This document shows positions 4,492 to 29,614 of a DNA stretch of 44,458 nucleotides, one piece after another (the first letter of the stretch is position 1; each line of letters opens with the position of its first letter). The stretch comes from a virus, in IMG/VR virus record IMGVR_UViG_3300010299_000011, positions 1-44,458 of that record, one strand, 5' to 3'. The notes beneath the pieces were generated by a model. It ran no database searches. It saw nothing but the letters and a program-made list of their open reading frames with translations, and had not been told where the DNA came from. Position numbers and translations under genes: made by a program.

Positions 4492-5506
4492 CTGCTCCTT
4501 CTGCGCCAAGCGTGGCGGGAAGCAGACCGTATTTGCGGAGTATGCGTATGGAGTCTTCAGTCCCGGGGAACATGACGTAGTTGCGTGTGCCCTCGCCGAC
4601 ACTGCGGGACTGTCCGTCAAAATATCGAACGCCAGGCACGCCTGCTTCCCTCAGGAACGCAGAGGCCCCAGGCGCACCTAGGGTCGACTCCAGATCGCCG
4701 TATAGAACTTTTCCCGGCTTCTCTGGTGCAAAATGCACTATGTGCGAAAGCCGATCACGCGGGGTCAGTTGCGGGCGAGTTCCCGAGGAAACCGCATCGT
4801 AGTAGGCGTCGCGCCTGGCGTGAAAATCAAAGGGCAATGCAGTGCTTTGCTCTCCGATTGGCGAATCCCAGTCCAGCAGCGAGTCTTCCGGATATTGAAT
4901 TTCTACTTCGTATTGCTTGCCAGGCTTAGACTCCGGCAGGAACTGCACTCTGTTTTTCCGGAGCAAATCGTAGGCTCCCGTTAACTCCATGAGACGATCT
5001 TGGAGCTTAAGCCCTTGGTAATCTTCGGCGTGCCCAACCTGCTGAACGTAGTCGTCGATATCTTTCTTCGCCTGCGTTATGTCACCGGGCAGTGTGTATC
5101 GCAGTTCCTCTAGTCGCTTGGCTGCGCCATCCGGAAACAGAAAGTGCGTGGCATTGCGCAGGTACAATGCGCCAACTTTTTCTGAAAGCGGCAAAGAACC
5201 GTAAAGGCTCTTAGAAAACACATCGGTCCCATCAACGGCAATGCTGGGCTCGCGCGGGGGGCCAGCCAGCCTCCTTCGATAGATGCCGGAAAGTGGTTCA
5301 TGCTGGGCGAAGTAAAGTCCGTGCGAGAAGGCCTGAGCGCCTTCGCCAGTTCCAATGTACTCAGGATCAAAGGCATCAAAGTCCGCCTTGCTCCCGTGGT
5401 AAGCACGGAACGAGCCTTGGCCGCGCTGCGTCTCTCTCGCAAGTTTCCGTACGCTATCTCCAGCAGCATCCACAAACCGCGAGATGTTGCCGAAAACATC
5501 GGCCAT
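4448..5506 (-). CDS. Polyvalent-type ADP-ribosyltransferase
   Basis: 352 residues from ATG 5506, sharing one base with the upstream stop (TGATG). Residues 34-68 hold AYHGS, FDAFDPEYIGTGEGAQAF and SHGLYFAQ, the signature of ART domains found in phage polyvalent proteins; H37 and Y65 fit the H-Y-E class. The C-terminal part has GVPGVRYFDGQSR and GTRNYVMF, which close the same domain. Such enzymes transfer ADP-ribose from NAD to host proteins and are commonly injected with phage DNA. As the last gene of the late operon, after the likely internal virion proteins, it is plausibly a packaged effector; that location is inference. Confidence 0.8.
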   Translation of the reverse strand: MADVFGNISRFVDAAGDSVRKLARETQRGQGSFRAYHGSKADFDAFDPEYIGTGEGAQAFSHGLYFAQHEPLSGIYRRRLAGPPREPSIAVDGTDVFSKSLYGSLPLSEKVGALYLRNATHFLFPDGAAKRLEELRYTLPGDITQAKKDIDDYVQQVGHAEDYQGLKLQDRLMELTGAYDLLRKNRVQFLPESKPGKQYEVEIQYPEDSLLDWDSPIGEQSTALPFDFHARRDAYYDAVSSGTRPQLTPRDRLSHIVHFAPEKPGKVLYGDLESTLGAPGASAFLREAGVPGVRYFDGQSRSVGEGTRNYVMFPGTEDSIRILRKYGLLPATLGAEGAVNQQQESESPAPAF

Positions 5507-8500
5507 CACACCACCCCCAGCAGTTGCATTGGGTCTTGCATCTGCTCCGCACGCTTCCGCTCCCGTGCGCGCTTCGATGCTTCAGACTGGATCACGCGGT
5601 AAAGCAGATACATCTCCTGCTCCTGCGGTCCCATCTTGGCCAACTCTTCGGCCGGGATGTTGATGTTCTCGTAGGTTCTCGCGCCCGAGGTTGTCTCCAG
5701 TAGCCGTGTCACTGTGTCTCGGGCGGCACGGTCCATCGCTTGCTGGCTGTTAACGTCGGCCAACTTCCCCAGTCCCGAGTTATTCAAAACGACTTTGGTT
5801 AGACGCTCCAATGGAGTCAGGCGGTCGTCAATGGCCGTCCTATAGGCCGGCAAGAGTTTGGAAGCACCCGGAACCAGGTTCATCACGGCCTGCTCCAAGT
5901 AAGCGCCGTCCTTGCCGAGACTCTGTTCGAATACGGAGTACAGATCGTTCAGGTCCCGCCCAGAGTACAGCTGCTTCCCAAAGAGCCCTTCGATAGCCAG
6001 CTTGGGTACGGGGTTTAGGTCGCCGGCCAAGTTGATCCCGGTCTTCTGAATTGTGTCCAGCAACACCTGCAGCGGAGTGTTGCCTGTCCCAGGCGTGAAG
6101 TAGTTGACTACACCTGTGAAAGGCAGATCGATGCCCGTCAGGTAACTCTGTAGCTCTTCGTTTTCACGCGGATACGGAAACGGTATCGACACCTGTTTCC
6201 GCAGGTGCTCCGGAACAAAGTAGTCCTCGCCGCTGCGGCTGCCGCTGTTGATTGCGCGGATGGTTTGCCCTTGTAGTCCGCCGGGTCGATAGATTGTATT
6301 GCTGGCGACAAGCGGCGTAATCCCTCGGGGGAAACTGTAGAATGGGACGAGCCGCTTTAGCGCGGCCTCGCCCGCCGTGAACGCCTCGGGCGAATAATCG
6401 ATCTGCGATTCAAAGACCAGCCGGGCAGCTTCATCTGGGCTTGCGCCGCGTTGCAGGGCAGACAGGTAGACGCCCATGCGATTTGCGTCTTCCACTCTGG
6501 CTGCGGTGCTCTCATGCAGTTGAAGCAGAGGATTGCGTGTGACCTGTGGGGCGCGGCGGTCGCTTGTCAAAGAGCCAGTAAAGTCCACGCCCCTCACGGT
6601 AAAGAAGTCACGGAGCTGCTCCCTGGTCTTGGGGATGTTGAAGACTCCGCCTTGCCCAAACCAGTTGGTCGGTTTGTATCCCGATCCTAAGTACAGGCCC
6701 GGCGCCTCCGCAGCGCCTTCGACGTCGCCAACAACCTGGCCCTGCCCGAGGCGGTTGCGGGCGTATTCGCCTTGGAACTGTGCCAGAATCTCCTTGTCCA
6801 CATCCGCCTGCGATGCGGACGGCATCAACTTGCGATAGGCAGCCGCCGCTCTTTGGTAGCGTGGGATGTTACGGATTTTGGTTAGCAACGCTTGCTCGTT
6901 TCCCATGCCGGCACGCAAGCCGGTAACGGCGTTAGACAAGATCGTCAGCGGATTGGCGATACCCTGCGATGCCGTGGCGTACTGGCCGCTGTATGCGTTG
7001 CGAACGTGGTACGCTGGGTTGGCGAGAGCGCCGATCTTAAACGCATTAGTGAAAGACCGGTACAAACGCCCAAGCGGGGAGTCTGATGCCGGCGGGCCAG
7101 GAGGCATCAGCTGCTTCAGGTCTTCAATCTGCCGCTCCGTGACCAGCATTTCGTCAGCGTCGATGCCGTGCCGCTGCAGCATGGCCTCCCTGAACTGCTT
7201 AGGGACAAACCCTAGCCGTTCGCCGGCCTGCGTCAGGGTGATGCCTCCGCCGCCAACTACGGCCTCGGCGTTACCTTGTGTGGAAATGCGTGCCAGGTTG
7301 TCAATGACTGCGTCCGCGTTCGCATTGACACGGGCACGCCCGAGGTCATAGCGAAGCATGTCTTGGAAGGCAGAGTTATCGAACAAGCCAAGACCCTGGT
7401 CGGCGAACTGGGTGTCAGCCATTCGGAGCTGGTCAACAAGTTTGACCTTGTAGCCGGCAAGCGTGTCTTGTTGCTGCTGCAGCTGCTTCTGCAGCTTCTT
7501 TAACTGCTTGGCAGCGGTGCGTCGGTCGCTTTTGACGGCATCAGCTAAGTCAACATCTGTCCCGCCTGACTGCAACTCTTTCTGCAGTTGCCGCAGTTTC
7601 CTTGTGACTTGGTTCCGCTGCTTTGACGAAAGGCCAGGACTGGCTTGCAGTTCAGCGATCCGTTGCTGGGTTTTCGCAATTGCGTCTTCGGCACCGCCAT
7701 ACATGCGGCCCATGAGTCCGCCGGTAGACTGGTTCAGCTTTTCCCACTGCTGCTCCAAGGCGGCGACTGCAGTTGCGTCGTCAGAGTTCAGGAGCGTCTG
7801 TTGCAGCGCTCGCCCTTCATCGCCACCCATCAGCTGGCGGAGTGCTTGGCGGCGCATCGGCAGATCGTATGCGGGGTCACGGGAGCGGCCCAGGTTGTCT
7901 TCCAGGTTCAGCGCCCGTTGACCGCTGGTGTATCGCCTCTCCCTTTTGCCCAAGCGGCCTTCGGGGATGTCAGGCCGGGCTTCCACTTCAAACGTCTTCC
8001 GTTGCGACGGGAAGAACCCAGAGGCCCCATCGAACTTGCGGAGTTTGACCCCACGCGCCTGTGCATCGGCGACGGCATCTGCGATGCGCTGAGTGAACGC
8101 ATCACGCACAGCCTGCCACTCGGGCACCATGGAGATCGCACGTGCCGCTTGCTGGTCTATCAGCTTGGAGATGTCGCCGTTCGCTTCCGCGTAGTCGGCC
8201 AGCGAGTTTTGAATACGCTGGCTATTGAAGGAGCGGAGATCGTCTCCAAACTCCGCCGGCAACGCAGAGACGTCTGCCGTGCTTGCCCGGTACTGCAGTT
8301 GGGTGTATTGCTCCTGAATGTCACGCCTGGCGTTGCGGGCCTGCGCAAACGCTTCTCGGTTGCGCCACTGGCTGTCGGGGTCCAGCGCTCCCATTACGCT
8401 TGTGTCGAAGAACCGCGTGGCCCGGTTGACGATTGGCGCCACGCCCGGAATGCGCTTTGATGCTTCGCCGGCAGTGTCAAAGAACCTGGCAAGTGCGTCC

Positions 8501-15155: not shown

Positions 15156-16067
15156 TTACGCGCGGCGGCGAGGCACAAAAGCATCTCCAATTTGGAAGCC
15201 CTGCAGTGGCAATTGCTTAGCCGGTATTTCGATGGAAACAGGGTTAGTTGTTTCGGTCAGTGTGCATGTAGAAGGGTCGAATGTGTACGACTTCACATTG
15301 ACCGTAGTGGATAGTCCAGGGAAATCGACATACGGCCGTGTGCCAGAAATAAACGACCCCGTTGGCGGGTCCGGTGGCGGAGGAGCATTCGGCGGTGGGA
15401 ATGGCACAGAGATGAAACCACCTCCGCCAGGCGCGCCAGAAGAACCGGGTGCGCCGGGAGCACCGTCCCGGCCGTCCGAGCCAGAGTCGCCAGGCGGACC
15501 AGGCGGACCTTGGATTGGCCGACCATTGATATTGGTAACGCTTAGGTTCGTAGTGACACTGTTGTCTGTGTACGAGTTTCTGGTGATGCTGTTTTCGATG
15601 GTGGTGTTGCCACCGATGTAGTTGTTTGTGTCGCCGCCAAAGCTGTTGAATGTCAGGCTTGTTGGGAAGGAAAAGCTGGTGGGGTACAGATTGTTGTTGA
15701 TGGTTGTGTTTCCCCCGCCGCCGCCGCCGTCTACGAAACCGCTGCCTGGCGAAAGGTTCGGGGGCAATATTGGGTTGGGCTGGTAGGGGCCAGGGAAGAT
15801 GGGATTGAAATCGCCAAACACGGGCTGGAATAAGTTCAAATAGGCCGGGTCGTACGGCCCGAACTCCCGGAGAGTGACGGCGCGGTCCCCGCTTGCGTCG
15901 TACTCGCCCTGCCGGATAAAGGCACTTTGCGGCTGCACGCTGATGTCACCACGGTGCTCTAGCGGTTGGTTACAGTTGCCCAACGCCTGAGAGAATGACT
16001 TCAGCGTCTGCGCATCCATAGACTTCTGCAGCGCTCGCATCACCGAAGGCATGGTGCGTGTGAGCAT
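15156..16067 (-). CDS. Collagen-like structural protein
   Basis: 303 residues, TAATG-coupled to the nozzle gene. Residues 1-35 form a helix with NCNQPLEHRG; the middle has Pro/Phe-rich and Asn/Thr-rich repeats (NTTINNN, GGNTTIENSIT) typical of beta-helical fibre shafts; residues about 187-214 are an uninterrupted Gly-X-Y run (GPPGPPGDSGSDGRDG); the rest is a short C-terminal beta domain. Collagen-like runs trimerise phage fibres and appendages, so this is probably a trimeric tail or head appendage. Confidence 0.7.
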   Translation of the reverse strand: MLTRTMPSVMRALQKSMDAQTLKSFSQALGNCNQPLEHRGDISVQPQSAFIRQGEYDASGDRAVTLREFGPYDPAYLNLFQPVFGDFNPIFPGPYQPNPILPPNLSPGSGFVDGGGGGGNTTINNNLYPTSFSFPTSLTFNSFGGDTNNYIGGNTTIENSITRNSYTDNSVTTNLSVTNINGRPIQGPPGPPGDSGSDGRDGAPGAPGSSGAPGGGGFISVPFPPPNAPPPPDPPTGSFISGTRPYVDFPGLSTTVNVKSYTFDPSTCTLTETTNPVSIEIPAKQLPLQGFQIGDAFVPRRRA

Positions 16068-19000
16068 TAGCTGACCCCCTCCACGGCCACGCCAAAGATT
16101 TTTACGGCGCTGCCCGTGGTCCCGGCTTGGGTTCCGGCGAGTTCGACAGCGATGTGCCGGTCGCCGCCTGCGGAGCGGGTGTCGTTTCGTCCCGAGAAGT
16201 ACGCGCGGCCGAGCCCATTAGCGTCCCCAAGCGCGGAGCGGGACAACTGCATGTTCAGAGTGGATTCCGAGGTGCCGCTGGCGACAAACCCGTCTCCCCT
16301 GTCAGAGGAGATGACACTATTGCGAGGAGTGTCGGCGTTGTTGTAGTACAGACGCAGCTTCAGATTGCTTTCCTCTGCTGTCGGCTTGTAGACAAGCTGA
16401 ACGGAGCGGCTCTGCTGCTTGTCGTCTGTCAGCGACATGTTGCCGGTTTTGAATCTGTAGGCCACGCCGGCACCAGTCTGGTCGACAACTCCTTCCTCAC
16501 GGAGGAACAGGCCTCCAGCGGAAGTGACCGTGGTGTACTGGCCACCGATCACAGTGGAGGCTGACGCGGTTACCGGCTGGGGGTAGGTTTCCTCCCACCA
16601 CGCCTCTGTGACAACGCAGTAGCACAGCGCGCGTGCCGGCAATGTTTCTCCGACGCGGCAGTAGTAGAACCGAATGGTCTTTGTGGCGAAATCGGACGAC
16701 ATGTGAAACGAGTCTGAGGCGGACAGGTCGATAATCTGGTCACGCCAGTAGTTGTCGATCACAACCGAGACGGGCTGCTCCTGCGAACCGTCAAATGCGT
16801 ACACGCCGAATGAGTCGGCAAGGAATGCGACACCGCCCATCACGGTCCAGCAGCGGTCGTTCAAAATGCCTCTGTAGCCCACCAGCGTGATGGAGGCGTC
16901 AATCACCGGTTGGGCCACGTAGCTGAGCTTGTACAGGTGCGCGTCCTGAGCGATTAGCAAATCCGTTGACAGAGGAATCAACGCTTTGATCTGGTCGGGG
17001 GTGCCGGCGTTCTGCTGCACCACCAGCTCGTTGGATGCCGGAACCGACTCGGGCTCATCGACTTCGGAGTAAAGAAGGCTGTTGGGGCGGTCGCCAGTCG
17101 TATCCACCGCATACCACGCCCTGTCTTGGAAAACGACACCAACCGCAAAGTTGCCCGGTGGAACACCTTGCCGGCGCGCGTTGACCTGCCCGGAGGGAAG
17201 AATGATCGGGAGCAGCCCGTATCCCTGCCGCTTTACATCGATCAGCTCCGGGTCGCTCAGGTCGTCTTCGTAGCCGTTTGTCCACTCACTGTCAGTCTTT
17301 AGGATTGTCGCCACGCGGAACAGCACGGAGGCCTGGTCCGCTGTTGTTCGCCAAAGCTCCACGGCGTAAACGCGGTCGTCCACGGCTGTGTGCGTAAACG
17401 ACCAGTCGATGGCGCCGACACCCTCGGGGATGTCGATCTCGGTGATGTCGGAAATCGACGAGGTGATCGGCCCCTTGCGTGTGCGAGATGTGTCGTCAAT
17501 GTATCGCAAGGCGCACACGTACTTTCCTTTGATCGATGACGTCAGTTCAGCCGTAGCCTCGGCTGAAGTGTCTAAGATCAACGCTTCCGGGGTTTGTGCG
17601 TACTCACCGCCTGCGACGATGGTGACGCTAGTGATCTGACCGTCACTGTTGACTGCTGCCGTGGCTGCCGCACCTCGGCCGATGTCGTCTGTCTCGGCGG
17701 GCCTTATGGTGATGACAGGCGCCGCGTAGAAGCCGGTTCCGCTGGTCGCTGCGGTGATGGAGGCGACACGGTAACGCATTGCAGGCGTGACGGTCGCCCC
17801 AGTGCCGCCGCCTCCGATGATAGTGGCTGTGGAGTTGGTAGTGGCAGCAGTACCCCCGTAGACCACATTGATGCTGGAGACTTTCCCGTCCGATAGCGAA
17901 ACGAAGGCGTTGGGCGCCTGCGAGCCCGATGTCGTCAGGCCATACTGCGTGCCAAACTCCACGCGCGGTGGCGGGATTGTGGCGAGCCCGGTCACAATGT
18001 CCGATGTGAATGCGGTGGGTGTCGTTCCGGTGGCCGCAGCCAGCACTTTGAACCTGTTGGTTTCGACGCTTGCGGCGTAGTAGCGTACTCCCTCGGAAAG
18101 ACCGGTCCCACCGGAAAGTCCGGAGAACGTGACTGTGCTGCCGGCTAGGAGCCCGTGGTAAGGGATATTTATGTAAAGATGGCGAGCCGGATCGACCACA
18201 AACCCTTCCGTGATGGCGGCGGTGAGAGTGATGCCAGCTCCGCCGGTGGTGGTGGCAGCTTGGAACTGCGTGTCGTTCACGCTAACGGCGTAGTAGGTTG
18301 TATTGGCAGTTAGGTCTGTGCTGCCACTGATGGACGCAAAGTAAAAGGCATCGTCATTTGTAAAACCGTGGGTAGTTGACGAGATGTAGTTGCTGCTGGT
18401 GGCAGATGTAACCGCTATGGCGCCTGCACCGGTGATTGATTGGACGCGGCTGTAGCCTTCGCCGCCGGAGTTGATTGTTACACCAAACACCCGCCCACTC
18501 AGGCCGACGTTAAAATCCGGGGCCTCGCCGATGCCGCCGGAAAACGTAACCGTTGGCACCTCTTGGTATTTTCGCCCCCGGTCTGTCAGCCTGACGCCAA
18601 TTACTCTCCCGCCTTGGATGATCGCTCGCCCAGTTGCCTCTTCCTCGGCTGACCCTCCAGAGATCGTCACGGTCGGTTCCGACACATAGCCGCCGCCTTG
18701 TCGCACCAGGGTGATGTCTCTCACATACTTGCCGACCGTGGTCCCGGCAGTCACGGCAGGCGCAACGGCCGGCTTATTAATGCCGATTTGCTCAGCGGTA
18801 GTGGCAGCGTTGTCCCACCGGATACCGCGCCCCATGCCGTCAACACCGTAGACGTCCCCAAAGCGTCCCTGAAAGAACGTCATCGGCCGAAGGGCGCCGG
18901 AATAGACCTTTGCCTCCGCCTCTGCCCCGGAGCCGGTTGCGGCGTTCAGCGTGATGGTCGGTGCTGATGTGTATCCAGTACCCTGGTTGACGATGACAAC

Positions 19001-19153
19001 CGACTCCACGCGGGTGCCGGCCATATGGCAGATTGCTGTGGCGCCAGTGCCGCTGCCGCCAGAGATTGAAACGGTTGGAGCAGAGGCGTAGCCGGAGCCT
19101 CCGGTGACCAGATTGATGGCGACGAGGCCGCCTGTTGTACGAGCTGACAGCAT
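16067..19153 (-). CDS. Tail nozzle / DNA-stabilisation-like protein with inserted beta repeats
   Basis: 1028 residues. The C-terminal half (from about residue 540, YVCALRYIDDTSRTRKGP onward) carries strand patterns of P22 gp10-like stabilisation proteins and podovirus nozzle proteins: PPGNFAVGVVFQDRAWY, LLYSEVDEPESVP, LIAQDAHLYKLSY, GGVAFLADSFGVYAFDG, FHMSSDFATKTIRFYY. The N-terminal half contains many GxGYxxxPTVTIxGG repeats and two longer HGF/YYAV-type beta modules. It probably forms the tail tube below the adaptor. The gene lacks the N-terminal start normally seen in such proteins, which appears to be encoded separately at 19153-19422. Confidence 0.78.
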   Translation of the reverse strand: MLSARTTGGLVAINLVTGGSGYASAPTVSISGGSGTGATAICHMAGTRVESVVIVNQGTGYTSAPTITLNAATGSGAEAEAKVYSGALRPMTFFQGRFGDVYGVDGMGRGIRWDNAATTAEQIGINKPAVAPAVTAGTTVGKYVRDITLVRQGGGYVSEPTVTISGGSAEEEATGRAIIQGGRVIGVRLTDRGRKYQEVPTVTFSGGIGEAPDFNVGLSGRVFGVTINSGGEGYSRVQSITGAGAIAVTSATSSNYISSTTHGFTNDDAFYFASISGSTDLTANTTYYAVSVNDTQFQAATTTGGAGITLTAAITEGFVVDPARHLYINIPYHGLLAGSTVTFSGLSGGTGLSEGVRYYAASVETNRFKVLAAATGTTPTAFTSDIVTGLATIPPPRVEFGTQYGLTTSGSQAPNAFVSLSDGKVSSINVVYGGTAATTNSTATIIGGGGTGATVTPAMRYRVASITAATSGTGFYAAPVITIRPAETDDIGRGAAATAAVNSDGQITSVTIVAGGEYAQTPEALILDTSAEATAELTSSIKGKYVCALRYIDDTSRTRKGPITSSISDITEIDIPEGVGAIDWSFTHTAVDDRVYAVELWRTTADQASVLFRVATILKTDSEWTNGYEDDLSDPELIDVKRQGYGLLPIILPSGQVNARRQGVPPGNFAVGVVFQDRAWYAVDTTGDRPNSLLYSEVDEPESVPASNELVVQQNAGTPDQIKALIPLSTDLLIAQDAHLYKLSYVAQPVIDASITLVGYRGILNDRCWTVMGGVAFLADSFGVYAFDGSQEQPVSVVIDNYWRDQIIDLSASDSFHMSSDFATKTIRFYYCRVGETLPARALCYCVVTEAWWEETYPQPVTASASTVIGGQYTTVTSAGGLFLREEGVVDQTGAGVAYRFKTGNMSLTDDKQQSRSVQLVYKPTAEESNLKLRLYYNNADTPRNSVISSDRGDGFVASGTSESTLNMQLSRSALGDANGLGRAYFSGRNDTRSAGGDRHIAVELAGTQAGTTGSAVKIFGVAVEGVS

Positions 19154-19443: not shown

Positions 19444-20601
19444 TTAATTACCGAAATCAAAGTTGTCGGCCAGAAGCGGCGACCGCCAGCCACCATCATT
19501 CCATATACGCTTGGACCGGCCGGAGAGCGGGGCGAGTTGGTCGGCCTCCATGGCCAAACGCAAGTCACGCTGATACAGCTGGTACTTCTCTTCGACGTTG
19601 CTGGAGCGGATGCGAGCGAGCCAATACTCAGAGCCGGAAAGCATTACGTTATGCATGTGCTCCGGAAGATCGATGGGGTCGGTGATGAGGTACTTTACGT
19701 TTGATGTGTTACTGTCGTTACCTGTGTACTTCATCGACGTTGGCGAAAATACCGAGGCAATCGTAATCTCGTCTTCGTAGGGCGTGAACGAGGTGAGTGT
19801 GTTTGGCGTGTTATTGCTATCGCCAATGCGGAGGATAGCGCCGACCATGGACGATGAAAACTCTGTCGACACGCCAAGGACTTCCGCAAAGGCACCGCCT
19901 AGAGTAGAAACAGTGCCGGCACGCGCGGCAGGCTCGTGACCACTCCACCGGAGTGGTCGCGGTTCTCTTCGGTATGTGAAGTCAATCGTCTCCACTAATG
20001 TTGGGTAGCCAACCAGCTTCAGAACGTATTTGGGCGAGTTTGGTGATTTTATGACAGTCCAGTGGAGTGGCGTTCCAGTCTGAAAGTTCACTCGCTCCAT
20101 CTTCATCGCTTCGTCCGGGGTGACGTAAGCGCCGGACCACCAGTTGAACTCATCTGACGGCTCGTCTAGATTCCGGAAGTCTGCCGGCAGGTCATATAGG
20201 GTTTTGTAGAATGTCGCCGTGTCGCCGTTTACGACTGTGCCCGATGGGAAATTCACGGAACTGCTCAGCGTGATCGTTGTCCCACCGATGATGGAAATGC
20301 TCACCACCTCGGCTACGCGGTCGCCGATACGCACGTGCGAGTAGCCCTGCGCAACCCCACTGGATAACAGCAGCGTGGTGTCGGACAGGGATGACACGGT
20401 TGCCGTGGCAGGCGCAGCCGTGAAAATACGCCCGTGAGCGTGCTGCCAACTCCAGTCACGTATGTTGCCGATCTCGGCGTAGCACCGATGCACGGCGGTG
20501 CGGATGTCACGCTGCTCCGCGTCTTGCGGGCCACCAAACGACGAGGCGATGAGGTGTTCGACAACGTCGAAATACGTGAGGTATGCCACTACTTCAGCCA
20601 C
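19444..20601 (-). CDS. Head-tail adaptor / tail tubular protein-like
   Basis: 385 residues. The N-terminus (YLTYFDVVEHLIASSFGG, then AVHRCYAEIGNIRDWSWQH) is the helical pattern of head-tail connector and tail tubular A/gp4-type adaptors; a beta-rich insert (about residues 60-130) and an LYDLPADFRNLDEP loop follow, then YLITDPIDLPEHMHNVMLSGSEYWLARI near the end, also typical. The adaptor would bind the portal and the nozzle encoded next. The start is GTG, at 20601 or 20589; the former overlaps the thioredoxin-like gene by 13 bases. Confidence 0.75.
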   Translation of the reverse strand: MAEVVAYLTYFDVVEHLIASSFGGPQDAEQRDIRTAVHRCYAEIGNIRDWSWQHAHGRIFTAAPATATVSSLSDTTLLLSSGVAQGYSHVRIGDRVAEVVSISIIGGTTITLSSSVNFPSGTVVNGDTATFYKTLYDLPADFRNLDEPSDEFNWWSGAYVTPDEAMKMERVNFQTGTPLHWTVIKSPNSPKYVLKLVGYPTLVETIDFTYRREPRPLRWSGHEPAARAGTVSTLGGAFAEVLGVSTEFSSSMVGAILRIGDSNNTPNTLTSFTPYEDEITIASVFSPTSMKYTGNDSNTSNVKYLITDPIDLPEHMHNVMLSGSEYWLARIRSSNVEEKYQLYQRDLRLAMEADQLAPLSGRSKRIWNDGGWRSPLLADNFDFGN

Positions 20602-20870
20602 CCCTTTAGCGATTCTGGCCCGCCATATCCGGTTCTCCGCTCCAGCTCCGTGTAGTCTCGGATGAGAACAAATGTCGGGACTGCAGTGACTCCCTTCACT
20701 GGTTTTCCGTCAATGTTGACGAAATGCACCTCTCGCCCGCCAAAGAGCGACGGGTCTTTTTCGTAGTCCGTTTTCAGCCGGCGGCAGGGCGGGCAAGCCG
20801 CAGATGTGTAAACGATGACGGTTTCGTCTTCGACGGCAAACATTGCCGCCAAAAGGGCAAGTGCGAACAT
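20589..20870 (-). CDS. Thioredoxin-like protein with N-terminal signal/anchor
   Basis: 93 residues from ATG 20870, preceded by GGAGC. Residues 1-12 (MFALALLAAMFA) are hydrophobic like a signal peptide or membrane anchor. Then a single thioredoxin fold: VIVYTSAACPPCR with redox cysteines C26 and C29 (CPPC), VHFVNID, and the cis-proline loop AVPTFVLI (P65). It would act as a disulfide oxidoreductase outside the cytoplasm, or with an unexported hydrophobic tip. Its operon neighbours are the Cys-containing protease-like protein and the adaptor, so a role in disulfide formation during virion assembly or in the envelope is possible. Confidence 0.8.
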   Translation of the reverse strand: MFALALLAAMFAVEDETVIVYTSAACPPCRRLKTDYEKDPSLFGGREVHFVNIDGKPVKGVTAVPTFVLIRDYTELERRTGYGGPESLKGWLK

Positions 20871-20960
20871 AGCCAAGCTCCAGGGGCTTACTGGCTATTG
20901 TCCAATCCGTCGAAATCACGGAGCATGGAGACGACCTATTGTTGTTGCGGAGGTGCTCGT

Positions 20961-22241
20961 TCACAGAAATTGCACCTGGTTTTGCGTGACTTCACGGAGC
21001 CACTCGGTAATCCCGCCAGTGAAGACACCCATGCCACGGGAGTCGGCCAGCGCGTGCGCAACGACCAGGCGGTCGCCGATCACACAGCAGCACGGGGAGC
21101 CGGAGTCGCCGACACGGATGTCCACGGAATGAGCGGCACGCTTGGGATCAGCCGACTGCTTTATGTGCGACGTCGGCGGCATGCCGCGTGCGTACATTAG
21201 ATCGGCTACACCGATCTGCTGGTTGCGGTTTTTCCATACCACTGGCGGGCTTGTGCCAGCTGGATACTGCGATGGCGGCCCTGCAAGCAAGGGCATCTTC
21301 TCCTCCCAGTCAACGCCAAACACCAGGGCCGGCCGAATCGCCACAGGATCACGCAGCGTGGCCACGGCGACGTCCCAGTCTCCAGGGGTGCAGCTGGCGA
21401 CCACAGCTTTTTCGCCACCCCAAAACGTCACTGCTTGGCCTGGGCGCGGCTGGTAGTGACGCACGTACAGAACGTGCTGAGGAGAGATAAGAATGCCGTT
21501 GCGGGAGGACGTTGCCATCGGCGACAAATCGATGGTGCCAGGAAACTGCCCTGCCGTTAACCGGGAGTCAACGCTTCTGGACAGCTCTTTCTCTGTGGGG
21601 GAGAGATCGGCAGTGACCGGCCCGCCGTCCAAAATCTCCCAGCCGTAGTCCACCACGTACTTGCGCAGTGGAGCGACAACCGGCGAGTAGCGAGCGCTCC
21701 CGAAGTCCACGGCACGCATCGGCGTGGGCAGCGTGCCGGCCTTTGCTTGCGAGTACAGGTTTTCAATGAGGCTGTCGTAGTAGCGTGTCTGGAAGTTTGT
21801 GTTGCCGGCGAAGTTTCGCATGGAGTCTTCCGACGACAAGCCGGAAAAGTCCCACTCCTGCAGCCCGATGCCTGAGATGTTCTCGCACCCCCACAGGCAC
21901 TGCCGCATGTCCCTGACTTGGGCTGTGTGTCGGAAGTGGTACAAGTTGAATCTGGCGGATCGGCAGCTCTTCAAAAATGCAGCGAGGTTGATGCACTTAC
22001 TGACGTCAACCATCGGCTGGTTGACCAAGTACCGGCAACCAGAGAAAAGTCCAGCGTACGACACCGAATCGTTCTCGGTGGGCGTCACTGTGACGCGGCA
22101 GGTGACCAGGCTGTTTAGAAGGCAGTTGGTAAACCTTCTCGCCTGAGGGGCATCGATAATCAGCTCCTCGCAGGCCTCGGGCACAATCCACGCCTCTAAG
22201 GCGCGGCGCATGTCGGTTCCACCGTGAACGGTGATCTTCAA
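20961..22241 (-). CDS. Virion-type protein: leucine-rich-like surface repeats plus trypsin-like protease
   Basis: 426 residues, TTG start (22239-22241) chosen because GGGAGG lies 10 bases upstream and the codon overlaps the upstream stop as TTGA. Residues about 35-170 have repeats of the BspA/DUF285 type (CLWGCENISG, LQEWDFSGLS, SMRNFAGNTNF). Residues about 240-426 show a chymotrypsin-fold protease: LISPQHVLYVRHYQP with H262, GDWDVAVATL with D290, and VGDSGSP with S380, a complete catalytic triad. Plausibly a tail-associated receptor-binding or surface-digesting protein. Protease assignment is strong; virion location is inference. Confidence 0.8.
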   Translation of the reverse strand: MKITVHGGTDMRRALEAWIVPEACEELIIDAPQARRFTNCLLNSLVTCRVTVTPTENDSVSYAGLFSGCRYLVNQPMVDVSKCINLAAFLKSCRSARFNLYHFRHTAQVRDMRQCLWGCENISGIGLQEWDFSGLSSEDSMRNFAGNTNFQTRYYDSLIENLYSQAKAGTLPTPMRAVDFGSARYSPVVAPLRKYVVDYGWEILDGGPVTADLSPTEKELSRSVDSRLTAGQFPGTIDLSPMATSSRNGILISPQHVLYVRHYQPRPGQAVTFWGGEKAVVASCTPGDWDVAVATLRDPVAIRPALVFGVDWEEKMPLLAGPPSQYPAGTSPPVVWKNRNQQIGVADLMYARGMPPTSHIKQSADPKRAAHSVDIRVGDSGSPCCCVIGDRLVVAHALADSRGMGVFTGGITEWLREVTQNQVQFL

Positions 22242-22444
22242 TTGTAAAGCGCCTCCCAGATGATTGATCTGATGTCCTCGGCGAGTTGGACGGCGTCGTC
22301 GGAAGGGTTGTCCGCCCACTTAATCAGCGCCCTACATTTAGTGTCCACATCCTCCACGGCTTGCGCGTATTTGAATCCATCCATGTGGATGTGGTACTCC
22401 TCCTCTTCTTCCGGAAGCGAGTAGACAACAGACACTGTCGGCAT
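22238..22444 (-). CDS. Small conserved-type phage protein
   Basis: 68 residues, ATG 22444 with AGGAAA upstream. It opens with a strand (VSVVYSLPEEEEEYHIHMDG) and continues with two helices (AQAVEDVDTKCRALIKWADN, EDIRSIIWEAL). I recognise this fold pattern from small phage proteins of unknown function that begin with a PEE-type strand and end in a helix-rich half. It is the first gene after a noncoding interval that has a promoter-like sequence. Function unknown. Confidence 0.65.
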   Translation of the reverse strand: MPTVSVVYSLPEEEEEYHIHMDGFKYAQAVEDVDTKCRALIKWADNPSDDAVQLAEDIRSIIWEALYN

Positions 22445-22790: not shown

Positions 22791-23030
22791 TTAGGGACAT
22801 GTCGGTGGCTCAGGTAGCGGCATCCAGTGTCTTACCATCGACGGGTGCAGTGTCGTTTTGCCAGGGGGCGAGACACTTTCCCATCGGTTGCCATGCCATT
22901 CGGAAAACGTAATCTCGTAGCCGTCCTTTGGTTCGCCGTCGATTACGCAGCGACCTGGAATCCTCATTGCGATTATGCACCGCACGCCATCGTCCGGCAG
23001 CCGCTCGCCTACTGGAATCCATTCGTTCAT
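22791..23030 (-). CDS. DUF551-domain protein
   Basis: 79 residues with a very strong ribosome-binding site (AAGGAGGTG) 4 bases before ATG 23030. It has the DUF551 pattern from end to end: an N-terminal EWIPVGERLPDDGVR and a C-terminal HWMPLPEPP. The family is small, widespread in phages and prophages, and of unknown function. Being located inside the tail gene cluster it is probably a moron-like or accessory gene. Confidence 0.85.
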   Translation of the reverse strand: MNEWIPVGERLPDDGVRCIIAMRIPGRCVIDGEPKDGYEITFSEWHGNRWESVSPPGKTTLHPSMVRHWMPLPEPPTCP

Positions 23031-23111: not shown

Positions 23112-23471
23112 TCACTCAGGCAGCGGGTCTGGCTGCGGCAGCAACGCAACGGCATCGGCCCACGGGACGAGTGCAATCTCGTCAAAGCGGCTGGCATCCA
23201 GACGGGCGAAGTTCCCGCCATACAATCCGTTCGGCACCTCACTGAGGATCGCTCCCCTAATCATAAATGTGCCGTCAGTGAGGGCCAGCGGCGTGACTCT
23301 GAACTGCTCAGGGTTCTCAGCCTGCACTTCTATTAAGCGGTCAGCCAACTCAGCCGAGAACACACACGCATACTGCTTGGCGTAGTCATACGGCACTGGC
23401 AAGTGCGGCAGCAGGTCTGCGACGCTGGCGGGGTTCTCTGGGAGTGGCAGTGGTTCGTCGATGTCTGGCAT
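23112..23471 (-). CDS. Hypothetical tail-fibre-accessory protein
   Basis: 119 residues, ATG coupled to the upstream stop by TAATG. An acidic Pro-rich N-terminus (MPDIDEPLPLPENP) precedes a folded part with FSAELADRLIEVQAENPEQF, then GGNFARLDASRFDEIALVPWADAVALL. No family recognised. It directly follows two fibre genes, which suggests a fibre assembly or accessory role. Confidence 0.6.
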   Translation of the reverse strand: MPDIDEPLPLPENPASVADLLPHLPVPYDYAKQYACVFSAELADRLIEVQAENPEQFRVTPLALTDGTFMIRGAILSEVPNGLYGGNFARLDASRFDEIALVPWADAVALLPQPDPLPE

Positions 23472-24292
23472 TACAGTGCGGCTCCTATTGCTGTGACGTA
23501 TGCAGAAACGTGCGTGTTTAGTTTGGACAGGTCCAGCGAAGTTCCAATACTGTAAAACGCAAATCTGTTTGCAGAGAAGTTGGTGGAACCAACACTCCCC
23601 TTAAAAACAAATGGATTTCCTGCGGCCTCGTTCACGGCCCCTCCGCTGTCGCTCTGCGTGCCATTCTCTCCGTACCCAAACCAAGAGAAAGATTCAATGG
23701 ATGAACGGCTGACTGCAACAAGTGATGGAACCGTATCACTTGTTCCTAGCGTGTAGATTGCTGACGATACAACTCTTGTCCGAAATCCAGTGGCCCCTGA
23801 TGAATCCAATATCGTCAGGTTGTTGTTGTCTTGCGAAATAAACCTATTTGCAGTGCCGCTGTCATACTTCTGTGTCATATACACAGAAAGATGAACGTCC
23901 GCATCATTCAAGTTTTCAGGCCCGTAATTCGTATCCAAAGACGTTGTGGCTCCGTCGCCCTTCAGTCCTTCTGATCGTAAATAATCGCCACTGGAAAACG
24001 AGTACGCCGTTGGCGCATCCCCTCGCAGCGGAACCAATGCCCCTGCCAGCGTTCTAGGTCCGCAGAGTAAACAACTAGAGCCAATCGCATCCCAGAGGCC
24101 ATCAGCCTTCAGGGCCGTAATGAACGCATCTACGGCTACCGCTACGCCCGTCTCAACGCCTGCACCGTCAGCGGCTGCCATCCGTGTCAGATAGTCGATG
24201 GCATCAGCGTCGGCGGGCAGGGGTTGCGAGCCGATGCCGGGATACCCGCCAGCGAAGGCATGGTCATACGGAAGGCGACTGGCGAGGCTCAT
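23471..24292 (-). CDS. Tail fibre-type protein with lectin-like C-terminus
   Basis: 273 residues from ATG 24292 (ATGA overlap). The segment AFITALKADGLWDAIG, then CGPRTLAGALVPLRG, then SGDYLRSEGLKGDG is a recurrent phage fibre motif that links a shaft to a concanavalin A/LamG-like beta sandwich. The rest has alternating strands and ends in a short helix (THVSAYVTAIGAAL). Its C-terminal design matches the fibre encoded just before it, suggesting duplicated receptor-binding subunits. Confidence 0.72.
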   Translation of the reverse strand: MSLASRLPYDHAFAGGYPGIGSQPLPADADAIDYLTRMAAADGAGVETGVAVAVDAFITALKADGLWDAIGSSCLLCGPRTLAGALVPLRGDAPTAYSFSSGDYLRSEGLKGDGATTSLDTNYGPENLNDADVHLSVYMTQKYDSGTANRFISQDNNNLTILDSSGATGFRTRVVSSAIYTLGTSDTVPSLVAVSRSSIESFSWFGYGENGTQSDSGGAVNEAAGNPFVFKGSVGSTNFSANRFAFYSIGTSLDLSKLNTHVSAYVTAIGAAL

Positions 24293-25131
24293 ACTGAATA
24301 CCCCCAAGCGATGAGTCCCTCAACCAACTCCCTTTGCGAGGTGAGGTCGGAGGCGTAGATGACAATCTCTTGCAGTTTCCCTGCATAGTGAGCATCTGGC
24401 GTAGACGAAGACCCACCAAAGCGACCTATACGGCAGACGGTGTCTACCGTGCTAATAGATGAAGTGGAGCCAGACGCAGGAAGAGCCGCACCATTAAGAA
24501 AGAACGAGTTGTCCGCAGGCGTACTCCCAGAGAAAACGTGAACAGCCAACTGCTGTTCTCCGACTACACCGCCGCCATACAGTTCGTTACCGCCCTGCAC
24601 CCTAATACCGTGCTCCGATGTGAGGTTCCAGTTCTGCGAAGAGCTGGTGGCAGAGTTGTCGCCAATGCCAAGATAGTAGTAACCCGTGACTAAGTTGCCT
24701 GGCTCAACGACCGAGAAGAAACTGCGATCCGACGTTCCAGAGATGCCCCATGTCGAAGCAGCGGCCAGAAAGTCTAGGGCGAATGACAGTGCTGGCTTTC
24801 CTTCGCTAATAATCAATGAGCCGCTGTCGCAAATCTGTGGCTGGCTACCACTGGATGATTGCGAGGCATGGTTGGCGTTTGGCGACTGATCCCACCACTG
24901 CTTAACAAATCCATCACCCGCACCACAGAAAGCCGCCAGCGTCCCGTCGGCCACCTCTGCCGCCGTGAAGTCTTCCTCCGCGTCGTCGCTGGATCGCCGC
25001 ACTGTGACAACAGGCCCGGCGTATGAGTTGCTCAGGCTGCGAAGCGAGTAGGCGGCTGCGGCTCCCGGCACAAGGTCTAAAAGACCCGGTGTCTTGCGGG
25101 GAACCAGCAGGCGGTTGTTCATCGGGCTCAT
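24289..25131 (-). CDS. Tail fibre with arabinofuranosidase/LamG-type lectin domain
   Basis: 280 residues from ATG 25131, or 277 from ATG 25122; the open frame reaches further upstream. Near the N-terminus: GLLDLVPGAAAAYSLRSLSNSY, VVTVRRSSDDAEEDF, AAFCGAGDGFVKQWWDQSPNANH. This matches the arabinofuranosidase-B-catalytic-like motif (AYSLR..VRRSSD..WxDQS) seen in phage fibres. A LamG-like sandwich follows and ends HYAGKLQEIVIYASDLTSQR. The protein probably binds or degrades a host-surface polysaccharide; activity cannot be inferred from sequence alone. Confidence 0.78.
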   Translation of the reverse strand: MSPMNNRLLVPRKTPGLLDLVPGAAAAYSLRSLSNSYAGPVVTVRRSSDDAEEDFTAAEVADGTLAAFCGAGDGFVKQWWDQSPNANHASQSSSGSQPQICDSGSLIISEGKPALSFALDFLAAASTWGISGTSDRSFFSVVEPGNLVTGYYYLGIGDNSATSSSQNWNLTSEHGIRVQGGNELYGGGVVGEQQLAVHVFSGSTPADNSFFLNGAALPASGSTSSISTVDTVCRIGRFGGSSSTPDAHYAGKLQEIVIYASDLTSQRELVEGLIAWGYSV

Positions 25132-25156
25132 CTGGAGCGTCCGTAGAGTAAGTGAT

Positions 25157-25537
25157 TTACGGCTGTGGTGGTTCGTCGTCTGGCGTCGTCGGCGGAAGAG
25201 GTGGTGCCGTAAATGACTCTGCTGCCGTGTGCTTCCCTCCAGCAGCATCAATGAGCCAGCAATCGACCTGCACTTCGTCTTCCGGTTGCCATTGAAGGCG
25301 ATACGATGCCAATGTGTCTTGGTCTGTCTTGCTGTACTTCACTCCATCGGGAGGCCAGGACTGACTTTCGGCCCGCTCTCCGTTAAGGGAAAGCGAGAAC
25401 CCAAACGAAACGCCTTTCAGACTGACGACGTTGCCGTGCCTGTTCAGTTTCGCGGAGAGGCTGTCTCCTGTTGGCAAAGAATCTTCCAGTTCAAGCGAAA
25501 GCGTGCGTGATAGTACGTCGAATGTTGCCTGCATCAT
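25157..25537 (-). CDS. Hypothetical fibre-accessory protein
   Basis: 126 residues starting ATGATG at 25537, overlapping the upstream stop by ATGA. The first half reads as beta strands (MMQATFDVLSRTLSLELEDS, VVSLKGVSFGFSLSLNGE), the second as a short beta domain with a Pro-rich tail (APPLPPTTPDDEPPQP). It lies between two fibre genes and could be a fibre connector or chaperone. No family recognised. Confidence 0.6.
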   Translation of the reverse strand: MMQATFDVLSRTLSLELEDSLPTGDSLSAKLNRHGNVVSLKGVSFGFSLSLNGERAESQSWPPDGVKYSKTDQDTLASYRLQWQPEDEVQVDCWLIDAAGGKHTAAESFTAPPLPPTTPDDEPPQP

Positions 25538-26418
25538 ACTGCATCGTACTCCGCTTCGGTGATCTCGTATCGAACGACAACAGTCCCTGAACCGCCAGAG
25601 CCTCCGTCTATGTAGGCAGGGTTGTTAAACCTTCCGCCACCACCACCGTCGCCTAGCCCGTCAACGCCGTCCGCTAATGGCACGGACCCAAACGAGCCGC
25701 CGTCCCCTCCAGAGGCGTACACCACATCAGCACCAGAGATTGCGGAAGTCACGCCGGCTCCTCCGGCGCGTTGTGGATTATCACTAACAGCGTTTCCAGG
25801 GCCACCGGCCCCACCGCCACCGCCCCCTCCGCTGGCTTGTTGCCCGCCTTGACCACCATCGTTGCCCTGAGCAGGAGATGTGGGAGGTACATTTCCGCTT
25901 CCCGCTACCGGAAACACGCCCGCCTGACCAGAGCTGCCGCCGCCTCCTCCAGAGCCTCCATCTCTGCCAGTGCCTCCTCCTTGAACGTATTGGCCACCGC
26001 CACCGCCGCCCGCTGAAACAACCCCATCAAAAGAGGATGCTTGCCCATCCGCACCAGGATTGTTGCCGATGCTTCCATTGCCGCCATTGCCAACAACGAC
26101 CTCTTTAGAGCCAGCCGAAATGACCTTCTGCCCAGTGCGAAAGCCGCCCGCGCCGCCGCCACCGCCAATAGCCCCACCGCCACCGCCTCCGGCCACAACC
26201 AAGTACTCCACGTCCCCGCCACGGCTAAACGCAAGCGTGCTTGTGCCAGTGCTAGTAAAGGTGTGAACCTTGTAGAACTTGCCTCCCTGCGAGATGACCG
26301 TCTCTGTGCCACCAGACGCAACGGGGCCAGCCGCAAACGCAGAGCCACGGTACATCTTTCGCACCTGAGATGATCCAACCTTTAGGTTGGCGACAACATC
26401 GCCAAGGGTCAGTCCCAT
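25534..26418 (-). CDS. Glycine-rich tail adhesin
   Basis: 294 residues. After an N-terminal ~75-residue anchor with strands (VHTFTSTGTSTLAFSRGGDVEYLVVAGGGG) the remaining ~200 residues are dominated by Gly runs and GG(G/A)GG motifs, closing with GSGGSGTVVVRYEI. VEYLVVAGGGGGG is the hallmark of phage glycine-rich adhesin domains, which often form exposed polyglycine-type surfaces that bind host receptors. Trinucleotide-like repeats in the DNA make the length likely to vary. Confidence 0.8.
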   Translation of the reverse strand: MGLTLGDVVANLKVGSSQVRKMYRGSAFAAGPVASGGTETVISQGGKFYKVHTFTSTGTSTLAFSRGGDVEYLVVAGGGGGGAIGGGGGAGGFRTGQKVISAGSKEVVVGNGGNGSIGNNPGADGQASSFDGVVSAGGGGGGQYVQGGGTGRDGGSGGGGGSSGQAGVFPVAGSGNVPPTSPAQGNDGGQGGQQASGGGGGGGAGGPGNAVSDNPQRAGGAGVTSAISGADVVYASGGDGGSFGSVPLADGVDGLGDGGGGGRFNNPAYIDGGSGGSGTVVVRYEITEAEYDAV

Positions 26419-26441: not shown

Positions 26442-26711
26442 TCAGTCAGTGATGACGTAGAGCGTGTTGGCGTCAGGCGTCAGAGCGTCGTACGCCGCCT
26501 GCGTCAGGGCGACGATGTTGTCGATGCCTGTGCCGATAAGCGCGTAGTCGGTGTCGTTCCACGCCTTGCCCTCACCGATCTTCTTCCGGCCGGTGTCGGT
26601 TTCGTATCCAACCTCACCCTGAGCCAGCTGATAGTTGCCGGCCGTCCACTGGGCGGCAGTCTTCGACCGATTGATTTTGTCGACAGTTCGTAGCGGGTTC
26701 GGAAAACTCAT
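26442..26711 (-). CDS. Mtd-N-like fibre attachment protein
   Basis: 89 residues, GAGG upstream of the ATG 26711. NRSKTAAQWTAGNYQLAQGEVGYETDTGRKKIGEGKAWND matches the N-terminal domain of major tropism determinant proteins and related fibres; ALTQAAYDALTPDANTLYVITD is a frequent fibre C-terminal motif. The two are joined with no receptor domain between them, so it is probably a baseplate- or tail-attaching adaptor for the Gly-rich adhesin that follows. Confidence 0.75.
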   Translation of the reverse strand: MSFPNPLRTVDKINRSKTAAQWTAGNYQLAQGEVGYETDTGRKKIGEGKAWNDTDYALIGTGIDNIVALTQAAYDALTPDANTLYVITD

Positions 26712-27132: not shown

Positions 27133-27653
27133 CGGCCCTTCCCTTTGAGTGCGTGCTTTTCGATGACCTTCTCTCGCAGCTCACCTGCGCTAGCCTTTTT
27201 GTTCGCAGTTCGCAAACGGCGAACTTCCTTCTGGATGATCTTCTCGTTCAATACGGATCGCTTCGGTTCGGCAGGGCCGGGGTCATAATTGTAAATGCCC
27301 TGAACGGCCAAACGTCGCTTCTGGGCGACACGCTTAATGTCGTCTACCCCGGACACCCATGCGTCCGGGTCTTTCCAGCCACGCTTGTCTGCGAGTCCTC
27401 CGACGTAGTATTTCCCTGAGATGTCTACGCCCGCCTCACGCGCCTCTTTGGCGACGTACCTCGCCTGCCGAGGCGGCATTTCGTCCAGCTGCTGGTTGTT
27501 GTACCGTCCCTCCATAAACGACCTGTCGGAGCCAAGCGACCCTGGGGCGGTCTGGTATGCGCACATTTCCGCCCACTTCTCGCCGTGCGGGAGCGCCTTT
27601 TGGTACGTTTCAACAGCCTCTAGGCCGAGGCGTTTAATGTGGTCAGGGATCAC
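27129..27653 (-). CDS. Conserved-type phage protein after the portal
   Basis: 174 residues. The start is GTG (27651-27653), GTGA-coupled to the portal stop with AGGAG upstream. The centre, DRSFMEGRYNNQQLDEMPPRQARYVAKEAREAGVDISGKYYVGGLADKRGWKDPDAWVS, is a pattern I have seen in other phage proteins of unknown function. The C-terminal third is a charged helix (NEKIIQKEVRRLRTANKK), which may bind nucleic acid. Function not assigned. Confidence 0.68.
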   Translation of the reverse strand: MIPDHIKRLGLEAVETYQKALPHGEKWAEMCAYQTAPGSLGSDRSFMEGRYNNQQLDEMPPRQARYVAKEAREAGVDISGKYYVGGLADKRGWKDPDAWVSGVDDIKRVAQKRRLAVQGIYNYDPGPAEPKRSVLNEKIIQKEVRRLRTANKKASAGELREKVIEKHALKGKGR

Positions 27654-29614
27654 TGCTGCTCCTGTGGCGGTTCGCCCGGAGGAGGTCCGGGCGGAGGTGG
27701 TGGTGGTACGAGGTAGCGGGACACATCGAAGTTCATAGTGTTCCCCCAGTCCTCCAGCATGGCATTGAACAGCTCTGGCCTGCCTGCCTGCAGAAGCCCC
27801 TGGGCGACGGGCATAATGATTTGCATAGCGTTGTTCAGGTTTTCCACCTTGGTGGCGATATTCGGCTTGCGGGCCGAGCCGGCTTCAACGCGGTAGCTGT
27901 ACTCCCGGACGATGGTGTCCGGGGCCTCGTTCAGCACGTGCATCTGCCACGCCTGAGCCGCCATGGGGCCGAGCAGCGGGGCGACGTCTTGCGGCGAGAT
28001 AAGCCACCTCGCCATCAACGCTTCCTTGCGGGCGACCTCCGAAAGGGCGTCCTCAAGCTGGTTGGCATAGTCGTCAGGGCGGACGGAGATTTGCTCCGCC
28101 TTCACCTGTGCTTCTGCAGCACTTCTGAATTGATTTCTGGAAAGCCCGTACAACAATTCTGTTAACCCAACCCGGCGGTCAAACAGAGCCGTTACCTCAG
28201 CGATGATCTGATACATGTCCTGGGTGACGCCAGGCATTTGAAAGACGCTGATCACATCGTTGACGCTGCGGCCAATAGCTTCGCTGATTTCAACGATCCT
28301 GAGTCCGCCTTCCGCCTTATCCAGAATCTTCGATTTGATGTCGGGGTCGGCAGCCTTTGCGACTCCAACAAGCGTCTGCGACGACGTCGCAATACGGGTT
28401 GCCAAAAACGACATAGCCCAGTTGATGAATCGCAACTCGCCGATGCCTGGCCGGATGAGGGAGACGGGCCAGCTGTATCCGGGCTTTCCATGCCACGCCA
28501 TCAGCGTAAACGGCCAGCCGTTTGGTTCTGCCCAGAATGGTATCGGCCACTGTGCGGACATAAACAGCGACTGTGGGATGCCCGTCTCGTCTACTTCCTC
28601 CTGCAGCATCTCCGGCGGCGCGTTTAACGGGAAGTCAACGCCTTCGGCTACGACGATGTAGCAGTTCGGCCCAAGGGAGTCGAACTTCCCGCGTAGCTCC
28701 TTGTCGCCGTCTTTCAAACGGTCGCCGAATCCAGTCTTGGAGTAGACTTCCCAGTACGTTAGCAGGTCGTTTGTTTTTCCGTTCTTGCGCTTTGTCTCGT
28801 AGCCACGCTCCCCAGCGTCTGCGCGTGAGTGGTAAGTCTCGCCGTTGGCCTTCAGGTCTTCACGCTTCAGGCCGAACTTGTTGGCCACGTAGTCAATTGG
28901 GTGGACCCGCTTGCGTGCGCACCAAAGGATGTCTTCAAACTCGTCAGCATCTGGATCCCAGACCAGGTTGTCGATGGAGTCGAAAAAGCTGCCGGCAAAC
29001 TTTGTTTCCGTGCCTGGTGGCTGGTACAGCTCATGCCACCAAACAGAGGCCCCCTTTATGAACGCCTCTTCGACGACCTTACGGGAGTGCTGCTTTAGGT
29101 TCAGCTCGTTCGGGGTGTAGTTCAGGTAGTCCTCCAGCAGTTTGCTGACGAGCTTGCGCCTCTCCAGCATCAACTGCTGCTGCTGGAGCATCTGCTGGTA
29201 CATCTGCACTCCAGGGTCTGGCATCATCACCGGCTGGCCGTCAGGGCCGATAACCGGCTGCCCGTCAGGCCCCATCTGTGGTGTCGGGGGCTGTGGGAAG
29301 ATGCCCAGCAGCTGCGGCCCGATGATCGGGTACTGCTTCGGGGTTACAGTGCGCGTCGGATTGCGGTGGTGGATGACGGCCGTAAAAAGACGCACAGCCT
29401 CCCAGACGCGGTTGACCTGCATCCGGAACTCGGGCGGGTCAATGCCGCGTGAGAAGTTTTTGAAATACTTGCTGCCCCACATCGCATCTGGATCGGAGCA
29501 GAAGAAGGACATAGCCTCCTCTGCGTCCTCGCTGAAGGGCTTCTTGTGCTTCTCAGCAAGGCGGATTTTCTCCAGCCACTGCTTACAGATGGGACGCAGA
29601 GGGTTATCTTCCAT
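27650..29614 (-). CDS. Portal protein
   Basis: 654 residues, size and order (after the large terminase, before tail genes) of a podovirus P22-like portal. Visible segments: PPEFRMQVNRVWEAVRLFTAVIHHRNPT, KVVEEAFIKGASVWWHELYQPPG, SFFDSIDNLVWDPDADEFEDILWCARKR, GIGELRFINWAMSFLATRIATSSQTL, and YANQLEDALSEVARKEALM. The portal dodecamer forms the packaging vertex and head-tail junction. A tandem GPDGQPVIG unit occurs near residues 119-136. The C-terminus is Pro-rich. Confidence 0.88.
   Translation of the reverse strand: MEDNPLRPICKQWLEKIRLAEKHKKPFSEDAEEAMSFFCSDPDAMWGSKYFKNFSRGIDPPEFRMQVNRVWEAVRLFTAVIHHRNPTRTVTPKQYPIIGPQLLGIFPQPPTPQMGPDGQPVIGPDGQPVMMPDPGVQMYQQMLQQQQLMLERRKLVSKLLEDYLNYTPNELNLKQHSRKVVEEAFIKGASVWWHELYQPPGTETKFAGSFFDSIDNLVWDPDADEFEDILWCARKRVHPIDYVANKFGLKREDLKANGETYHSRADAGERGYETKRKNGKTNDLLTYWEVYSKTGFGDRLKDGDKELRGKFDSLGPNCYIVVAEGVDFPLNAPPEMLQEEVDETGIPQSLFMSAQWPIPFWAEPNGWPFTLMAWHGKPGYSWPVSLIRPGIGELRFINWAMSFLATRIATSSQTLVGVAKAADPDIKSKILDKAEGGLRIVEISEAIGRSVNDVISVFQMPGVTQDMYQIIAEVTALFDRRVGLTELLYGLSRNQFRSAAEAQVKAEQISVRPDDYANQLEDALSEVARKEALMARWLISPQDVAPLLGPMAAQAWQMHVLNEAPDTIVREYSYRVEAGSARKPNIATKVENLNNAMQIIMPVAQGLLQAGRPELFNAMLEDWGNTMNFDVSRYLVPPPPPPGPPPGEPPQEQQ

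Follow-up and report, generated by a model that had tools for sequence, protein, structure and literature searches.

A leucine-rich-repeat/trypsin-like protease fusion in the adhesin gene block of a probable Planctomycetota phage

Tailspike depolymerases of phages attach to the host surface and open a path enzymatically; their substrates are glycans and their folds mostly beta-helices, and most of the enzymes known from phage tails in general act on sugars or peptidoglycan. Tail adhesins with serine peptidase activity are known, namely the Peptidase_S74 tail-fibre auto-chaperones, which cleave themselves. Trypsin-like domains are very widespread, and planctomycete phages and their receptors are little studied. 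No precedent for a trypsin-like protease in phage tails or adhesin blocks was found in the literature searched, the coverage of which was partial, making this weak evidence of absence. DUF285-type leucine-rich repeats (LRR) have been described in phages: a protein of this type is known in Vibrio phage pir03 (PMC7765460), and gp103 of Sphingomonas phage PAU (1857 aa) contains 16 DUF285 stretches.

The window analysed here (the whole stretch of DNA, a viral record of 44,458 bp from IMG/VR) encodes a protein that a sequence-only reading had described as BspA/DUF285-like repeats joined to a chymotrypsin-fold protease, a combination held to be unusual for phages. That judgement stands for the fused trypsin-like domain, which is the unusual part, but not for the DUF285-type repeats, which were already known in phages. 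PAU gp103 shares the DUF285-type LRR with the window protein and aligns to its LRR half, but is a giant LRR protein in which Pfam recognises no trypsin domain. UOF78081.1 of the complete genome MW202510 (Podoviridae sp. ct3Et533) resembles the window protein in its H/D/S trypsin-like domain and in its position in a structural/fibre block; it differs in having no LRR half and another N-terminus, and is not annotated as a protease. The Peptidase_S74 auto-chaperones are a different family, and the window protein has no S74 match in Pfam.

Gene start and neighbourhood

The features of the fusion gene and of its surroundings are summarized in Table 1. The orthologs in two relatives, L085 and L097, carry ATG at the residue that matches the TTG at 22241, and GGGAGG lies 10 nt upstream of this TTG; it is therefore taken as the right start. 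No apparent signal peptide was seen on inspection of the sequence. Scanned as a single sequence, the protein gave no Pfam match at E<=1 and weak, non-significant PHROG matches, and the case for its domains therefore rests on relatives. With the window protein alone as query, no relative was found among viral contigs; relatives were reached via the terminase, a neighbouring gene and alignments, using syntenic contigs of terminase relatives (79 loci) and of relatives of a conserved structural-module gene (the anchor gene), for which Pfam and PHROG gave no family match.

The genes follow each other on the same strand in the order portal, Mtd_N/Phage_tail_C adapter, adhesin-like genes, fusion, thioredoxin-like gene, anchor gene and structural proteins, and the content of the stretch from portal to anchor varies strongly across relatives. 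The fusion is thus placed in a tail/adhesin gene block on one strand, in agreement with the tail-module position proposed from the sequence alone. Pfam and PHROG recognised no virion-attachment domain in the fusion protein; Mtd_N and Phage_tail_C belong to another gene of the block, the product of which (89 aa) consists solely of these two domains and represents a stand-alone adapter that is conserved in L015. The thioredoxin-like protein, which has a hydrophobic N-terminus, adjoins the fusion in L085 and is present in L086; it occurs with or without the protease. Elsewhere in the window, a 353-aa protein (4448-5509, minus strand) matches phage endolysin (phrog_873) and ART-PolyVal ADP-ribosyltransferase, both weakly.

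Table 1. Positions of the fusion gene, its parts and neighbouring features in the window
Feature	Position	Strand	Basis or remark
Portal	27650-29614	-	Within one-strand structural block
Mtd_N + Phage_tail_C adapter, head of adhesin block	26442-26711	-	Window and L015 each exceed the cut-offs of both Pfam models
Adhesin-like gene run	23471-26418	-	phrog_17104, phrog_10356 with arabinofuranosidase match, Gly_rich_2
Upstream adhesin-like gene	24289-25251	-	phrog_10356 virion structural protein, E 5e-22
DUF551 protein in structural block	22791-23030	-	
Shine-Dalgarno-like GGGAGG	22252-22257	-	Sequence
LRR-protease fusion gene, 426 aa	20961-22241	-	Open reading frame with TTG start; start set by L085, L097
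LRR (BspA/DUF285-type) half, residues 1-208	21618-22241	-	DUF285 matches of L097, L085; profile vs PAU gp103
Variable linker, residues 209-235	21537-21617	-	Window-L085 identity drops from 75% to 38% here
Trypsin/chymotrypsin-fold protease domain (predicted), residues 236-426	20964-21536	-	Profiles, fold search, alignments, invariant columns
Predicted catalytic His262 codon	21456-21458	-	Invariant in 8 phage homologs; gap-free vs canonical HVLTAAH
Predicted catalytic Asp290 codon	21372-21374	-	Invariant in 8 phage homologs; alignment to canonical trypsins
Predicted catalytic Ser380 codon (GDSGSP)	21102-21104	-	Invariant in 8 phage homologs; alignment to canonical trypsins
Thioredoxin-like, exported-looking, CPPC	20589-20876	-	Pfam Thioredoxin_2, E 8e-7
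Conserved 385-aa structural-module gene (synteny anchor)	19444-20601	-	Relatives L085-L095
Virion structural / baseplate-like protein	16067-19153	-	PHROG structural families, E 6e-27 to 1e-5
Putative fibre protein with collagen-like GPP repeats	15156-16067	-	Also in G036 (L083:1872-2900)

The two halves of the protein

Residues 1-208 were confirmed, at the level of sequence comparison, as a BspA/DUF285-type leucine-rich half. The L097 ortholog, which is 64% identical to the window fusion and was found via an LRR-profile scan in an unrelated phage type, exceeds the Pfam cut-off for DUF285 (25.8 vs 25 bits), and the L085 ortholog scores 19.4 bits against the same cut-off of 25; a profile of the LRR half aligns to PAU gp103.

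Residues 236-426 were likewise confirmed, from alignments and profiles, as a trypsin/chymotrypsin-fold domain with an apparently intact triad, for which catalytic activity is predicted. The triad residues stand in the contexts LISPQHVLYVRHY (H262), DWDVAVATL (D290) and GDSGSP (S380), and the order H-D-S in HVLxxxH, D[IV]A and GDSG contexts is that of the PA clan. In an alignment of eight phage protease domains, 10 of 133 ungapped columns are invariant, H262, D290 and S380 among them, and the triad is unchanged in every copy, down to 20-25% identity; by random draw, three preset columns would all be invariant in about 3 in 10,000 cases, a figure that serves as a guide only, columns not being independent. 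A profile of five protease domains matched solved trypsin-family PDB chains (factor Xa, E 0.004), a profile of six matched canonical secreted Pirellulaceae trypsins (E 1e-11), and the homolog in L111 exceeds the Pfam Trypsin cut-off (27.8 vs 20.6 bits). In the comparison of the window protein with the Pirellulaceae trypsins, LISPQHVLYVRH aligns gap-free to LISPTHVLTAAH, DVAVATL pairs with DIAIIEL, and GDSG with GDSG. The earlier description of repeats and protease in one protein was thus borne out through the Pfam matches and profiles of homologs, and its numbering of the triad proved exact.

Another histidine, H256, is likewise invariant among the eight phage homologs and matches the common H of 'ISPxHVLTAAH' ahead of the catalytic His. 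It was rejected as the catalytic residue: one factor Xa profile alignment sets H256 on TAAH, but it is H262 on which the alignments to Rv3671c and to the planctomycete trypsins run without a gap. A GDSG motif was not counted as a protease candidate if no H and D preceded it. D374, six residues before S380 and by simple counting what we take to be the trypsin S1-pocket position, varies among the eight homologs, a variation that would fit differing specificities.

Structure prediction supported the trypsin fold for the first barrel, as modelled, and did not settle it for the second. AlphaFold reached a pLDDT of 37 from the single sequence and a mean of 62.6 with six sequences, in which the LRR half was good (residues 1-208 mostly 64-93), the first barrel of the protease was at 60-79 and the second barrel, which carries S380, was below 50. 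The first barrel superposes on trypsin-like chains (VIA-align; best Z 8.7, 1.8 A over 71 residues); the VIA-align matches listed are trypsin-fold proteases, which align over the full domain (about 140 residues) at near 4 A, and the top PDB matches in Foldseek are of the trypsin fold, too. The fold search of the whole protein was dominated by the protease half.

The two halves group differently among the orthologs. In the LRR half, the window protein pairs with L085 (75% identity, and 68% with L097), and in the protease half with L097 (62%, and 38% with L085); the switch falls at the linker and reflects either a domain exchange or an accelerated change of the protease in L085, judging from these identities. 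pN was well below pS in both halves (dS near saturation), and purifying selection on both halves is evident in these comparisons. That divergence can be faster in the protease than in the LRR half (identities of 38% vs 75% between window and L085) would be compatible with an inactive scaffold, in which the trypsin fold is merely a second binding domain; we consider this very unlikely, in view of the purifying selection and of the H, D and S retained in 8/8 phage copies among only 10/133 invariant columns.

Recurrence in phages, host and cellular homologs

Judging from these homologies, several unrelated phages have the protease. L085, of the same phage type as the window, has the complete fusion, followed by the thioredoxin-like and anchor genes as in the window; in L015, the LRR half runs to the contig end and overlaps the Mtd_N/Phage_tail_C gene. 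The terminase and portal of L097 look HK97-like (type judged from the sequence alone). In G036 (L083), a 214-aa protease without LRR is encoded directly upstream of the anchor gene, near an adhesin-like gene, and in L004 a 461-aa protein with a different N-terminus and the protease is encoded downstream of an Mtd_N-domain protein. Both lie in the adhesin-block slot that the fusion fills in the window. Proteins of the L004 type were also found in L111, a phage-like contig of a Pirellulaceae metagenome-assembled genome (MAG), and in G066, another Pirellulaceae genome, in a provirus-like region beside an Mtd_N gene. The trypsin-like 'hypothetical' protein of the published phage MW202510 lies beside beta-helix and fn3 genes and is homologous to that of L004 over about 300 aa. 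Across these proteins, the N-terminus appears swapped modularly around the protease, as their domain comparison shows. A tblastn search of cultured phages with the L004 and G036 proteins gave no match, and neither did a scan of genome contigs with the fusion alignment. Weak tblastn matches in the Streptomyces phages JackieB and Araceli were rejected; in gp25 of JackieB, the one protein of these that was read, a carbohydrate-binding domain is present and a triad was not seen.

Among 47 related records searched whole, many of them fragments, three hold the protease, and its gene is therefore considered accessory. A capsid-maturation (prohead) protease was rejected, with no profile match, the gene in the adhesin block and most relatives without it. 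The protease might alternatively serve self-processing, i.e. cleave itself or neighbouring adhesins in tail maturation, like the intramolecular chaperone domains, without attacking the host; the gene does lie among adhesin-like genes, conservation within the protein is lowest in the linker, and the protease-only copy of G036 is found near an adhesin-like gene. Nevertheless, Pfam gives no match to any auto-chaperone family, Peptidase_S74 included, most relatives manage adhesin assembly without the protease, and the cellular homologs (see below) are secreted proteins; we regard self-processing as unlikely.

The host is probably a Pirellulaceae-type member of the Planctomycetota, as indicated by terminase relatedness and by binning, which can be wrong. 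Contigs L104 and L105 carry terminase relatives at 76-78% identity and were binned in a Pirellulaceae MAG that also contains the L111 protease contig; this MAG (M30B19) holds several contigs of the window phage type (L105, L104, L111), and in L105 the anchor gene is split into two frames, perhaps by an assembly error. For the L097 phage type, terminase relatives at 53-54% identity lie inside multi-megabase Pirellulaceae contigs and are therefore taken to be prophages; one such region that was read has the order HNH-TerS-TerL, as in the L097 type. The planctomycete host suggested for the window phage in the sequence-only reading thus gained support that is good, if indirect, but its argument that a proteinaceous envelope could be the substrate is outdated, because planctomycetes possess a peptidoglycan wall (PMC4432640). 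Surface proteins are still a possible substrate.

Proteases homologous to the phage proteins are also encoded in planctomycete chromosomes (BLASTP against L004, E 5e-22 over 300 aa), with apparent signal peptides and among cellular genes. Two of these (L143:1423-2643 and L144:1426-2754) share with the L004-type phage protein the pre-domain, the protease and the C-tail, LTEFDLGAF, and differ from it in the apparent signal peptide, the cellular neighbourhood and the lack of an LRR; the C-tail motif recurs in phages as LTEVDLSEF. As the cellular homologs are secreted, the domain is extracellular in cells; since the phage copy has no apparent signal peptide, it would exit most simply as part of the virion. 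The apparent lack of a signal peptide could also point to an intracellular protease that acts on defence, host-takeover or head-maturation targets picked by the LRR half, and the head-module open reading frames scanned yielded no other recognisable protease. Against this stand the secreted homologs, the position of the gene in the adhesin block outside the head module, the recurrent Mtd_N/tail-tip neighbours, and its absence from most close relatives, which makes a head protease unlikely; an intracellular role is, in our view, distinctly improbable.

Proposed role and significance

We propose that the encoded protein is a virion accessory and that it both binds and cuts a protein of the host surface, a reading to which we give an even chance and in which we infer activity, virion location and substrate. 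The protein would be an accessory of the tail/adhesin module of a phage of Pirellulaceae-type Planctomycetota: its LRR half would anchor on a host-surface protein or glycoprotein, its C-terminal trypsin-like protease, kept active, would cut the bound target or the surrounding protein coat, and this cleavage would give the virion access to the DNA entry site. The proposed logic of binding and clearing is that of the tailspike polysaccharide depolymerases, with protein in place of polysaccharide and a protease, not a glycan enzyme, in the window. A wider proposal, which we hold tentatively and somewhat short of even, is that Planctomycetota phages carry a portable 'protein depolymerase': a trypsin-like domain, akin to proteases that the hosts secrete, which in the adhesin blocks of unrelated phages is joined anew to varied binding or linker domains and cleaves host-surface proteins during entry.

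The interest of the protein lies in its recurrence across phage types and in the H-D-S triad, which makes the role directly testable. Given the recurrence of the protease, some phages may cleave proteins of the host surface as others cleave host sugars. If this is true, host-surface proteins, too, can be enzymatically cleared during entry, and the protein would open a way to study the infection of planctomycetes by phages.
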